From an uncultured Alteromonadaceae bacterium (GTDB lineage Bacteria; Pseudomonadota; Gammaproteobacteria; Enterobacterales; Alteromonadaceae), in contig CALKGI010000035.1 of the NCBI GenBank assembly GCA_938085045.1, forward strand, positions 1-64,000: 64,000 bases of DNA, read 5' to 3'. Below the pieces are notes generated by a model, which saw nothing but the letters and a program-made list of their open reading frames with translations, searched no databases and had not been told where the DNA came from. This document shows positions 12,219-21,556 of the stretch, in pieces (the stretch's first letter is position 1; every line of letters starts with the position of its first letter). The position numbers and the translations under genes were made by a program.

Positions 12219-12890
12219 CACGTTTTGAGCGAAGCTTGGATCAGTTAACACTATATTATTGGTAGTAGCGCCGTTTCGCCGCGATATTGGTCGCAGGCCA
12301 ATCAAAGAAATACAGGCTGCATCTATATTCCTTGCAAAAGATTATATCTTTCATCACCGCCTTTACCAAAGTTTCACTCTTAACTGACTGGCATTGAGAC
12401 TAAAGTCTTGCCTACGCTTTGGTAAAAACCACATTTGAGCTTAAGCTGTCGGGCATTTCAGATTAATTTTTCGCCATTCATCTACGTACATCCGTTTTCT
12501 AACGATCACCAAAAAGTTGGTGCAAAAAGATTGCTGTTTTGCGACAAACAGGGCAATTAAATGTCACTAATACTGATTGTATTTTCATTACGCCTACATC
12601 AAGCACTTTACTTAACTTGTCATCAGCAAATTCAGTGTTTGTATAAACAACGCGCAAAATCACCATACAACCCCGAAATCAACCCGTTCAACTCACTTTG
12701 TGGTTACGTGGCGGGTTACTGTCGGGTTTTTGTCAAAATACGATTTGTCACCAAGCTGAAAACCATTGTTTTTAAGACTGTAAACAAATGACATTACTAT
12801 CAAATTTTAACACTTTTTTCATTTTAAATTACCCCAACATTTAACTACAATCGCTTGATTTAAAACAACTTTTAACCCTTTGTCTTTTTA
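12219..12890. other. Gene-poor stretch with one nested inverted repeat
   Basis: No credible coding sequence. TTTACCAAAG (12362-12371) is perfectly complementary to CTTTGGTAAA (12417-12426) and encloses a second hairpin (GGCA..AGACT / AGTCT..TGCC, 12390-12412). A 76-codon frame at 12561 lacks a ribosome binding site and protein-like composition. The remainder is A/T-rich and otherwise featureless to the eye. Confidence 0.45.
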
Positions 12891-12917
12891 TTAACAAATA
12901 TTGACTTATTATTGATA
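12891..12917 (+). promoter_or_regulatory. Possible promoter of the GGA-rich RNA
   Basis: TTAACA (about 12891-12896) and TGATAA about 16 bp later give a sigma-70-like pair that would start transcription near 12925. A GTGAGATCCGTAAG sequence lies just downstream. It is a tentative assignment made because the RNA candidate needs a promoter here. Confidence 0.3.
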
Positions 12918-13094
12918 ACGTTTTGTCAGTGAGATCCGTAAGATGCATAACCAGTTACCAAGCAACAGCAACAAACTGTCAGCAAGTTAACACAAAGCAA
13001 AGTCAAAATGGACGCTGTATCAAGAGGAAAGGGAAGAAGTATATAAGGAAATTCAGATACAAAGGAAAAGGGTCATAAGGAAGATGTAATCGCT

Positions 13095-13378
13095 AAAAAG
13101 GAAGTCGTATAACGGAAGATGTATCAGCTAAAAAGGAAGTCGTATAACGGAAGATGTATCAGCTAAAAAGGAAGACGTATAACGGAAGATGTATCAGCTA
13201 AAAAGGAAGTCATATAACGGAAGATGTATCAGCTAAAAAAGGAAGTCGTATAACGGAAGATGTATCAGCTAAAAAAGGAAGACGTATAACGGAAGATGTA
13301 TCAGCTAAAAAAGGAAGACGTATAACGGAAGATGTATCAGCTAGAAAAGGAAGACGTTTAACGGAAGGTGTATCAGCT
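13095..13378 (+). repeat. Eight tandem 35/36-bp units, each with two GGA motifs
   Basis: Units start at 13095, 13130, 13165, 13200 (35 bp each) and 13235, 13271, 13307, 13343 (36 bp each, with one extra A in the A-run). Each has an A5-6 run, GGAAG(T/A)CGTATA, ACGGAAGATG and TATCAGCT. Degenerate half-units flank the array on both sides (from 13079, and 13379-13410). Length variation lies only in the A-run, as expected of slippage and unequal crossing-over. Confidence 0.9.
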
Positions 13379-13622
13379 GAAAAAGGAAGTTGTTAGTACG
13401 GATGGGTGTATTGAAGGAAGTAATATCGAGGGAACTGGGCATTAAGGAAGGCTTTTCGGCAGGATCATTGAACATCGGCAATTGCTGATGACAGTGATGG
13501 CCATAAGGAACGATGCTACCGGGTAAGGGCCGTAGCATAGAGTATTCAGGAAATGGAGTGTGTAGTTACCATCCGGGAGCAAACGTTACGTTCGCTTCCG
13601 GATGTGTATAAGGAATAGGGAA

Positions 13623-13783
13623 TATTGAGGCCTCGCTGCTACTTTTGAAATATGGGTATTTCATTAAAGGGGTTGGGGTAATAAAAATTCGGGTTCCTGC
13701 AAATTTTTATTGGACCAGAGTTTTAAAAAAGCGATTCGAAGGATAGTTGTACTATCCTCAAAGTAGTAGCGAGCGCCTCAATA
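13623..13783 (+). ncRNA. Closed multi-hairpin 3' domain of the RNA candidate
   Basis: Bases 13623-13645 pair with 13760-13783 as 23 base pairs with a single G-U and one bulged C (13774). Inside are three hairpins: GAAATA/TATTTC with a TGGG loop (13647-13662), AATAAAAATT/AATTTTTATT (13680-13711) and AGGATAGT/ACTATCCT with a TGT loop (13740-13758). Chance pairing of this extent is unlikely, so the segment very probably functions as folded RNA or as a cruciform. Confidence 0.65.
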
Positions 13784-13800
13784 AAGGATGTTTAACAACT

Positions 13801-13852
13801 AAAGAGCTGAATTTCTTGTTTAATTAAACAGGATTTTGGCTCTTTTTTTTGC
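13801..13852 (+). terminator. Strong intrinsic terminator of the RNA candidate
   Basis: AAAGAGC (13801-13807) pairs with GCTCTTT, followed by a run of eight T residues in total. The palindromic TGTTTAATTAAACA inside extends the stem-loop. Confidence 0.75.
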
Positions 13853-13878
13853 CTTTTTTTAACAGGCTTTTCTTTAGA

Positions 13879-13995: not shown

Positions 13996-14082
13996 CCACC
14001 TTTTTCATAGGAATAACATGTGGCAGATCCACCTTTTTCATAGGAATAACATGTGACATATCCACCTTTTTCATAGGAATAA
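13996..14082 (+). repeat. Three 21-bp motifs at exact 33-bp period before a DUF4143 ATPase gene
   Basis: The 21-bp core (CCACC, T-run, CATAGGAATAA) begins at 13996, 14029 and 14062. The 12-bp spacers are partly conserved (CATGTGGCAGAT, CATGTGACATAT). The last core ends 65 bp before the ATPase ATG. The same core at the same period lies before the second DUF4143 gene (39993-40112), so this is a shared element, probably an operator or protein-binding array. The period is close to three helical turns, which would place all motifs on one DNA face. Confidence 0.85.
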
Positions 14083-14147
14083 GTTGTAAACACAACACTG
14101 TTTTGCTAATTTTAAGCAAGTGTTCACCCAAAAATACGATGGAAAAC

Positions 14148-16752: not shown

Positions 16753-18975
16753 TTACTTCAAATTGCGTTCAAAAAATTGAGTAATGGTATTGTACAAATG
16801 CACTCTGACCTTTTTACCGCGCATGCTGTGCTTTGACCCCGGGTAGGTCATCATTTCGAACGGCAAACCTTGGTCTTGCAATTGTTTAAACAATTTAGTC
16901 GAATTGGTAAACAACACGTTATCGTCGGCCATGCCATGATAAATCAACATCGGACCCTTGAGGTCTTTGCTGTATGGGAAGACGCTGCTGGCCTCATAAC
17001 CTTCTGCATTGCTCTTAGGGTTACCAAGGTAACGTTCGGTATAATGCGTGTCATACAACGCCCAATCGGTCACAGGTGCGCCAACAACACCTGCCTGAAA
17101 GTAATCGCCCGCTTTGAACATGGCCATCAACACCATGTAACCACCATAACTGTGGCCATAAATACCAATTTTTTGAGGGTCGACAAAATCTAGCGTCCGT
17201 AAAAATTTAACGCCACTTATCTGATCCATCACCTCGGTTTCACCCATAACCTTGTAAATTGGATCTTCAAAACGCTTACCACGGTTAGTTGAACCGCGAT
17301 TATCCAATTGAAACACCACAAAACCCTGTTGCAGCAAATACTGAACATAATACGGATTGTTCCAGTTATTTCTCACCGTTTGTGCACCCGGTCCGCCATA
17401 CACCTTAACAATCACCGGATAACGCTTGCTGGCTTCCATATTCCTAGGTTTATGTAACTTGTAGTACAAGTCTTGACCATCTTCGGCCTTAATGGTGCCA
17501 AACTCAGGCGCAACAAATTCATCAATATAAGCGTGTAATGGATGACTAGCGTTGACTTCGTTACGTTCTAACCAAGTAATGAATTTACCGTTGATATCTC
17601 TAAGAGCCACAGAGCTCGGTTGAGTCGACGATGATTGGTAATCAATAAAAGTGCGGTTATCGTCGGCCAACACTGGATAATGATAACTACCCGCATCAGT
17701 CAAACGCTTAATCTTAGCCGATTTGAAAAGCGCAATAGAATACAAATGGCTTTCAAGTGGGGTGTCTGCGCGACCAGTAAAATAGGCCAAACCTTTTTTC
17801 TCATCAACGCCCTGCAGGCCATCAACAATCCAATCACCTTTGGTCAGTTGACGTACCAGCTCACCGTTATTTTTGTATAAATAAAGATGCATAAAACCGT
17901 CTCTTTCAGACGCCCACACAAAGTGCAAACTATCTTCTAAGAAGTACAACGATTTATGCAAATTTAGCCATGTTTTGTTGGTTTCGGTCAGTGCAACCTT
18001 AGTGGTTTTACGTTTGCTGTCATAAAACCGCAACTCTAGCTTTTGCTGAGAGCGGTTTTGCCACTGATAAGACAAGGTTTTGTTGTCTGGTAACCACTTG
18101 GCGCGAGCCAAATAGAAATCCGTTTCTTTGCCCAAATCAAGCCAATCGACCTTTTTGTTGTTTAAATGCACCACAGCCAACTCGATTTTGGCGTTATTGG
18201 TGCCAGCATAAGGATAACGTTGTTCAAACAACTTCACCTCATCGGCATAAATTTCGTTGCGAATGATCTCTTGCACCGGGCTTTCGTCGGTGCGGGTAAA
18301 AGCGATTTTTGACTCATCGTCGGCCCACCAGTAACCAGTCATGCGATCAATTTCTTCTTGCGCTACAAACTCAGCCATGCCGTTTTTAATCAAACCACCG
18401 CCATCAGTGGTGAGCTGGGTTTCTTTGCCACTACTAACATTCAATACAAACAGGTTTTGCTCGCGAATAAACGACACAAAGTTACCTTTTGGCGAAAAGC
18501 GCACATCGGTTTCAAACTCTGGAGTATTGGTCAGCTTACGGCTTTTTTGGCTTTTCAGCTCGTAATAATACAAGTCACCATTGATTGGAAATAACAACGC
18601 TTTGCCGTCGTCTGACCATTTGTAGCTGATAATGCCCGACCCACTGACGCGCATTCTTTCACGGCGGGCTTTCTCTTCATCTGACAACACCTCTTTACCC
18701 GCAAATAAACGAGCTGAATCGACCAACATTCGGTTGGTTTTATCTTTGATGTTGTATTCCCACAAATCATAGCGGCGATGATCCTCCTGTTTACCCTGTA
18801 GGTAAGTCACTCGGGTGCCATCGGGTGAAAAACTCACTATCTTAGGGCTTTTTCCCGACAAACTAGGGCTGGAATATAGCCTGTCTATCGACAAAGATTC
18901 TGCTGCTAGCGTGCTGCTGAACAAGGTCAGCTGTATGACTAACAGCACTGTCCAAACACTGAGTATTTTGCTCAT
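16753..18975 (-). CDS. Dipeptidyl peptidase IV-like serine peptidase (S9B)
   Basis: 740 residues with a signal peptide (LSVWTVLLVIQLTLFSSTLAAES), so periplasmic or secreted. The N-terminal part is a beta-propeller (DPPIV_N) containing the substrate N-terminus-binding double-Glu motif (FVAQEEIDRM). The C-terminal alpha/beta-hydrolase has the full triad: S609 in GHSYGGYM, D684 in HGMADDNV and H716 in PGSKHSM. It would release X-Pro/X-Ala dipeptides from peptides, probably for nutrition. Length fits bacterial DPP IV. It is monocistronic. Confidence 0.93.
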   Translation of the reverse strand: MSKILSVWTVLLVIQLTLFSSTLAAESLSIDRLYSSPSLSGKSPKIVSFSPDGTRVTYLQGKQEDHRRYDLWEYNIKDKTNRMLVDSARLFAGKEVLSDEEKARRERMRVSGSGIISYKWSDDGKALLFPINGDLYYYELKSQKSRKLTNTPEFETDVRFSPKGNFVSFIREQNLFVLNVSSGKETQLTTDGGGLIKNGMAEFVAQEEIDRMTGYWWADDESKIAFTRTDESPVQEIIRNEIYADEVKLFEQRYPYAGTNNAKIELAVVHLNNKKVDWLDLGKETDFYLARAKWLPDNKTLSYQWQNRSQQKLELRFYDSKRKTTKVALTETNKTWLNLHKSLYFLEDSLHFVWASERDGFMHLYLYKNNGELVRQLTKGDWIVDGLQGVDEKKGLAYFTGRADTPLESHLYSIALFKSAKIKRLTDAGSYHYPVLADDNRTFIDYQSSSTQPSSVALRDINGKFITWLERNEVNASHPLHAYIDEFVAPEFGTIKAEDGQDLYYKLHKPRNMEASKRYPVIVKVYGGPGAQTVRNNWNNPYYVQYLLQQGFVVFQLDNRGSTNRGKRFEDPIYKVMGETEVMDQISGVKFLRTLDFVDPQKIGIYGHSYGGYMVLMAMFKAGDYFQAGVVGAPVTDWALYDTHYTERYLGNPKSNAEGYEASSVFPYSKDLKGPMLIYHGMADDNVLFTNSTKLFKQLQDQGLPFEMMTYPGSKHSMRGKKVRVHLYNTITQFFERNLK

Positions 18976-20374: not shown

Positions 20375-21556
20375 ATGAACCCAAACGATATTAAGCGAAT
20401 ACGCGAACACACGCCCGGCTCTGTCGGGGTTATTCACTTCAATAATGCCGGTGCTGCCTTGCAACCCGCACCTGTTTTTCAGGCGGTGACCGACCACCTC
20501 AATCTCGAATACCAAATTGGCGGTTATGAAGCGGCAGCCAAAGCACTGCCCAAAACCGAAGCTTTTTATCAAAGCTTTGCCACCTTACTTAACTGTCAGC
20601 CTAACGAAATAGCCTATATCGAAAACGCCACCCGAGCTTGGGACATGCTGTTTTATTCAATTCCATTTAAAAAAGGCGACCGTATTCTCACTGCCCGTTC
20701 AGAATATATCAGCAACTATCTAGCCTACCTGCAAGTCGCCCAGCGTCACGGGGTGATAGTAGAGGCTGTGCCTGATGATGAATCGGGTCAACTCGATTTG
20801 GCCGCGCTCGATGCAATGATTGATGAAAACGTAAAACTCATTGCAATCACCCACATTCCCACCCATGGCGGTTTGGTTAACCCTGCTATTGGTGTTGGTA
20901 AAATCGCTCGTAAACACAATGTTTTATACCTGCTCGACGCTTGCCAGTCGGTTGGTCAAATACCGTTAGATGTGCAAGAAATTGGCTGCGATATGCTCAC
21001 CGGCACAGGCCGGAAATTTTTGCGCGGCCCCAGAGGCACCGGATTTTTATACGTGCGCCACGCATTAATCGAAAGCCTTGAACCGCCTTTTATTGACCTA
21101 CACGCCGCCGACTGGGTCGACCAAAACACCTACAAAATAAGACCCGACGCCCGCCGCTTTGAAAACTGGGAAAGCCATATCGCAGGCCGCGTAGGATTGG
21201 CAGCCGCAGTAGATTACGCCTTAGATATTGGACTAGAAAATATCAAGCAACGGGTTTACACATTAGCGCAAATATTCAGAACCAAACTGGCTGACATTCC
21301 GGGGGTTGAGATTCGAGATAGAGGAACCGAACAATGCGGTATTGTCACCTTCACCAAAGCTGGTGAAACCGGTTTGCAGATATCAAAACGACTGCGCGAA
21401 AAACACATCAACACCTCAGTTGCGGTGGTAGAACATGCTCGCATAGATATGACGACCCGAGGACTAAAAGACATGGTGAGAGCGTCGGTACATTATTACA
21501 ATACCGAAGTCGAAATCGAACGATTTTGTGAGGTATTAGCTGAAGGTTGTCAGTAA
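20375..21556 (+). CDS. Class V aminotransferase (cysteine desulfurase/epimerase-like)
   Basis: 393 residues, fold-type I PLP enzyme. Visible features: N-terminal HFNNAGAALQP, the PLP-ring aspartate in LLDACQSVGQIPLD (D188), and the Schiff-base lysine K214 in GTGRKFLRGPRGTGF. This subgroup is often labelled isopenicillin-N-epimerase-like; its reaction cannot be fixed by eye. There is no obvious catalytic-loop Cys of true desulfurases. The small GG-leader peptide gene follows 140 bp downstream behind its own promoter, which raises the possibility of a peptide-tailoring role, but the family is widespread and the link is speculative. Confidence 0.88.
   Translation: MNPNDIKRIREHTPGSVGVIHFNNAGAALQPAPVFQAVTDHLNLEYQIGGYEAAAKALPKTEAFYQSFATLLNCQPNEIAYIENATRAWDMLFYSIPFKKGDRILTARSEYISNYLAYLQVAQRHGVIVEAVPDDESGQLDLAALDAMIDENVKLIAITHIPTHGGLVNPAIGVGKIARKHNVLYLLDACQSVGQIPLDVQEIGCDMLTGTGRKFLRGPRGTGFLYVRHALIESLEPPFIDLHAADWVDQNTYKIRPDARRFENWESHIAGRVGLAAAVDYALDIGLENIKQRVYTLAQIFRTKLADIPGVEIRDRGTEQCGIVTFTKAGETGLQISKRLREKHINTSVAVVEHARIDMTTRGLKDMVRASVHYYNTEVEIERFCEVLAEGCQ

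Follow-up and report, generated by a model that had tools for sequence, protein, structure and literature searches.

Three loci for predicted long, GGA-rich, bipartite CsrA-sequestering RNAs in an uncultured Alteromonadaceae bacterium

In the usual description, the RNAs that sequester CsrA, a global regulator acting post-transcriptionally, are short, rich in hairpins and under UvrY/GacA control. A GGA-rich tract of about 0.93 kb in the 64,000-nt window (the whole stretch of DNA that was analysed), from a marine bacterium, raises the question of whether it encodes an RNA of this functional class and, if so, how such an RNA is built and driven. The locus, here called A, lies between genes, encodes no protein and combines a promoter-like sequence, a GGA array, a folded 3′ part and a terminator. 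Its features are as follows.

12882..12919, + strand: predicted promoter, TTAACA - 17 nt - GATAAC, within the block TTATTATTGATAAC
12926..13853, + strand: predicted non-coding RNA A, ~0.93 kb, GGA-rich and bipartite, with the start placed from the -10 box and the end from the terminator
12942..12965, + strand: leader element ATGNNTAACCAGTTACCRAG with the inverted repeat TAAC-CA-GTTA, conserved in all copies
13010..13464, + strand: GGA array with 28 GGA, mostly in 35/36-nt tandem units; predicted CsrA-binding region
13440..13853, + strand: folded 3′ half, carrying the remaining GGAs (-145 kcal/mol, z = -7.4)
13626..13783, + strand: 3′ domain, a long closing helix around hairpins, in a layout common to the paralogues B and C
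13671..13722, + strand: conserved internal hairpin AATAAAAATTCGGGTTCCTGCAAATTTTTATT, 97% identical to B over 38 nt
13800..13848, + strand: intrinsic terminator, an 11+8-bp hairpin (-18.7 kcal/mol) and a T run behind it

A total of 39 GGA motifs were counted on the + strand between 12925 and 13852 against 5 on the - strand, while 500 dinucleotide shuffles of the same bases gave 21.9 ± 3.2 with a maximum of 33. The density of ~4.2 GGA per 100 nt corresponds to 13–15 per 250 nt, whereas the window averages 1.3 and the + strand never exceeds 8 outside the locus, making A the densest GGA cluster of the window. This excess, together with the fold of the 3′ part, bears out the GGA-rich, structured tract noted in the original prediction. 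The longest ORFs in A measure 49 aa (+) and 65 aa (-). In the orthologue from ‘Algicola’ sp. MAG DT_2 (G001), the one further genome of the genus that was covered, the former is interrupted by a stop and by a gap that shifts the frame, and the latter has lost both its ATG and its frame, so that a protein-coding reading was ruled out, as the original prediction had also held. A cis-acting leader of the downstream ATPase gene was likewise ruled out, since the terminator lies between the two and the downstream region is different in G001. Three 33-bp direct repeats (CCACCTTTTTCATAGGAATAACATGTG...) were noted at 13996-14094, between the terminator of A and the ATPase gene.

Searching the bacterium's own genome (G000) with locus A revealed two more places, one reached via the 3′ hairpin and the other via the leader.

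G000:C168 (L120:8264-8641): paralogue B, ~0.57 kb, 23 GGA
C38 (5′ part) and C230 (3′ part, with 43 GGA): paralogue C, split across contigs

Both contain GGA-rich units, complete or contig-broken, with the same promoter as A, and orthologues of A, B and C were all obtained from G001, where the A orthologue shows 86–90% identity and the same upstream neighbourhood. The promoter, the leader, the GGA array and the layout of the 3′ domain are common to the three paralogues, which have little other sequence in common. Array length is unequal between the two genomes, both of which are fragmentary MAGs (completeness 81% and 87%) whose contigs break within arrays, leaving some copies split there. No A/B/C-type RNA was matched in the plasmid collection, nor in the viral contigs, for which the array unit and the hairpin served as queries. 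On C168, RNA B lies divergent from a GG-leader peptide gene, and its other neighbours, judged by eye, comprise a LanC-like cyclase, a LanB-like protein, HlyD and a peptidase-ABC transporter, likely forming a lanthipeptide-type cluster.

The promoter is near-invariant across the six copies (three loci in two genomes), the -35 element being TTGACA or TTGATA in the other copies in place of the TTAACA of A. It appears to be of the sigma-70 type; a sigma-54 promoter was rejected by eye, the spacing being one off and the GG not being retained in A. The 14-mer TTATTATTGATAAC was found only at the A, B and C loci and at one site within a coding gene. The leader TAACCAGTTACC lies exactly 28 nt past the -10 in every copy, though the intervening DNA differs, and a role as a regulon site was rejected as its four other genomic matches all fall within coding genes. 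A model of promoter plus leader, run on 297 genomes of the family, gave 93–100 bits at the six copies and ≤22.8 elsewhere. Among the weak matches that were fetched, a single GGA-rich locus (L042) was rejected as a simple octanucleotide repeat; at L042:200-620 (G279), this long perfect repeat, (TTTTTGGA)n, adjoins an apparent tRNA gene.

Each 35/36-nt unit of the array holds two GGAs, one in an AAGGAAG and one in an ACGGAAG context, which agrees with the AAGGAA and ACGGAAG contexts given by the original prediction. The regular 17–18-nt spacing given there is that of the mean (~17.7 nt) and not of the single steps, which are mostly 14–22 nt, alternating between 14 and 21–22 nt and later running at 15–16 nt. 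The array folds less well than its shuffles (z = +1.9, with 99 of 100 shuffles folding as well or better), and the mean unpaired probability in A is 0.61 for GGA against 0.44 for other bases, with few GGAs placed in stable loops. The GGAs are also preferentially maintained. Between the two genomes, 242 of 252 GGA bases (0.96) are conserved compared with 792 of 908 other G/A (0.87), the Fisher p of 1.3e-5 being only indicative because tandem copies do not provide independent sites. With 76 of 84 GGAs intact in the orthologues, the motifs are conserved in the related genome.

In addition, 89% of the GGA steps in A fall within the 10–63 nt that a CsrA dimer can bridge (PMC7652899), and CsrA is present as a single copy in the genome. 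When the GGA flanks were compared with the RsmE/CsrA consensus A/U-C-A-N-GGA-N-G-U/A (PMC6849547), at least four of the five flanking positions agreed in 51% of the GGAs of A, 13% of B and 21% of C, against 5% in E. coli CsrB and 6% in the background, with the C position almost never matched; since E. coli CsrB, a proven sponge, scores no higher than background, this result is suggestive and does not amount to a binding test. Overall, the sequence features suggest that A probably works like a CsrB-type CsrA sponge, and that A, B and C are three paralogous genes for long CsrA-sequestering non-coding RNAs.

As the array is less structured than its shuffles, the stable hairpins are confined to the 3′ half, where folding exceeds that of shuffles in all three paralogues (z = -7.4 in A, -6.7 in B and -7.3 in C). 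The stable hairpins and strong terminator of the original prediction were thus found in this half and not in the open array, and the combination of open array and strongly folded tail makes the RNA bipartite. In A, B and C alike, a long closing helix encloses several hairpins and is followed by the terminator. The sequences of the closing helices differ among the three, while one internal hairpin is common to them, being near-identical in A and B and retained with an altered loop in the C of G000. The covariance model R2 of this hairpin, run on 395 genomes of the order, gave a match in a single one, the own genome. Covariation in the hairpins, hoped for as further support, is weak between the two genomes: within A, 3 pairs changed on both sides, 15 changed on one side and 14 were broken, so that the 3′ fold rests on its energy and on the layout common to the three paralogues. 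An extended reading, possible but doubtful, is that A, B and C form a second class of Csr sponge in the same cell, under separate regulation, and that this domain has a ligand or partner of its own. The partner may, for example, be a protein, or an mRNA pairing with the GGGUUCCUGC loop that is conserved between A and B, so that the RNA would couple CsrA titration to a second regulatory output.

A different target for the array is rather unlikely, though the openness of the array suits it. Under this alternative, the GGAAG sites would titrate an unnamed GGAAG-binding protein, or ribosomes through the Shine-Dalgarno-like AAGGA, and the share of GGAs in an A-N-GGA-N-G setting (62, 35 and 30% in A, B and C compared with 5–16% in CsrB and in the candidate RNAs D and E described below) is in its favour. 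However, ACGGAAG accounts for half of the array sites and does not lengthen the anti-Shine-Dalgarno pairing, and it is the GGA that forms the common, preferentially conserved core, with flanks approaching the CsrA/RsmE consensus.

The genome encodes UvrY (69% identity to the E. coli protein), yet no recognisable UvrY/GacA box (TGTRAG-N6-CTYACA) was found within 500 nt at any of the six A/B/C copies, where the best matches carry 4–5 mismatches and are no better than shuffles. The linked GacA-type promoter site that had been expected is thus absent at A and at both paralogues. The same search of the own genome revealed two orthologous sites, each preceding a GGA-rich, terminator-ended unit.

G000:C215 ~16770-17230 (L100, L079) and G001:C466 (L101): candidate RNA D, preceded by a perfect UvrY/GacA box and ending in a terminator
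G000:C194, - strand, box at 21086-21103 (L099), and G001:C444 (L102): candidate RNA E, with a one-off UvrY box

Candidate E is itself tandemly expanded, its GGA count being 27 or 38 depending on the genome. Just past the terminators of E (L099/L102) and D (L101), dispersed repeats were observed whose hairpins TCCATGGATGGA and TTCATGGATGAAC bear GGA at their tips, and these could be extragenic elements resembling CsrA sites. With boxes at D and E and none at A, B and C, the genome appears to have Csr RNAs of the UvrY type as well as the A/B/C class, and the best reading is that the latter represents a genus-level family with a promoter distinct from that of the UvrY set. It is quite improbable that A is instead a conventional CsrB under UvrY/GacA control, with an activator site that has diverged too far, or lies too far away, to be recognised. 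The presence of uvrY and the CsrB-like genes of several relatives in the family, in which the box lies ~190–200 nt upstream of the first GGA, would allow for it; against it stand the shuffle-level matches at all six copies and the perfect or one-off boxes kept by D and E in the same genome. Least probable by far is a non-functional minisatellite of slippage-expanded repeats with incidental promoter- and terminator-like flanks, since the unequal array lengths and the contig breaks within arrays would fit it, but the promoter, the leader at its fixed 28 nt, the GGAs and the 3′ fold are kept at three loci in two genomes despite different unit sequences, and GGA is conserved above other bases.

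Under the preferred CsrA-sponge reading, the common promoter, free of a UvrY/GacA site, would drive all three genes, transcription being judged from the promoter and terminator sequences. The loose array would then display some 20–40 GGA sites, neighbours among which one CsrA dimer could bridge. Because the sites are spaced for dimer bridging, one transcript could hold many CsrA dimers and free mRNAs from CsrA. The folded 3′ domain and the terminator hairpin would probably protect against decay from the 3′ end or set turnover, while the number of sites could be tuned by duplicating a unit of 19 or 35/36 nt in tandem. The genome seems to carry two differently wired sponge sets, namely the GGA-rich D and E with their UvrY boxes and the long bipartite A, B and C. 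If true, this would show a route for a second input into a global regulator, how site number evolves through tandem duplication, and that RNAs of this kind can escape homology models altogether. A, B and C would also provide a natural open multi-site array, which bears on whether CsrA titration needs presentation in hairpins.

Locus A displays most of the sequence features of the CsrB/Rsm functional class, namely GGA excess and conservation, a promoter and terminator without an ORF, and a csrA gene in the genome, and lacks a recognisable UvrY box and an Rfam match. Searched with Rfam at the gathering cut-off and at E = 10, A gave no CsrB, RsmY or RsmZ match, and the only hits were of eukaryotic, plastid or archaeal type and were taken as chance. 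This silence says little, because the CsrB model (RF00018) gave 0 matches in the own genome, missing D and E as well as A, B and C. Like E. coli CsrB (RF00018), which titrates CsrA with 22 GGA in 369 nt, A is intergenic, has a promoter and a terminator, and carries many GGAs at bridging distance. It is 2.5 times longer, however, and differs in having no UvrY box, a separate folded 3′ domain and no Rfam model match. Its GGAs are strung along an open tandem array, whereas E. coli CsrB presents them in CAGGAUG loops; their mean unpaired probability is 0.61 in A and 0.80 in E. coli CsrB. The description of A as a larger CsrB/RsmZ-like RNA with an extra 3′ domain is the best-supported reading but only partly borne out: GGA conservation, flanks, spacing, promoter, terminator and csrA agree with it, while few GGAs lie in stable hairpin loops of the E. 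coli CsrB kind and no Rfam match was obtained.

In another family of the order, a 0.7-kb CsrB-like array (G025:C1:595011-595710; L084:1512-2211) carries 55 GGA in a ~50-nt tandem unit and scores 70.8 bits with Rfam CsrB, just under the cut-off of 71, without the A/B/C hairpin. Csr RNAs are already known from this order. In a related genus, Pf1, Pf2 and Pf3 of Pseudoalteromonas fuliginea, with 25, 21 and 9 GGA, are described as antagonising CsrA, with binding by EMSA for Pf2 and Pf3 and a glycogen assay for Pf1–3, and the sequence of Pf1 and Pf2 as confined to the genus (PMC9927453, PMC11882849). They have fewer GGAs than A, Pf1 has a putative GacA site, unlike A, B and C, and a common folded 3′ domain such as theirs receives no mention in the text consulted. 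In the part of the literature covered, the combination of an open array, a common folded 3′ domain, a common UvrY-box-free promoter and three separate copies was not found described. RsmV and RsmW of Pseudomonas aeruginosa, whose expression is not directly GacA/S-dependent, exist beside the GacA-driven RsmY/Z (PMC8395346) and would resemble the predicted sponges A, B and C, by description, in lacking direct GacA dependence. In a marine relative, Alteromonas macleodii Te101, three GGA-rich Csr-type RNAs, Aln1a-c, are very highly expressed (PMC5864184). These match A, B and C in number and GGA richness, but all three come from one 404-bp intergenic region and must each be short, whereas A, B and C occupy three loci of roughly 0.57–0.93 kb with a common promoter.
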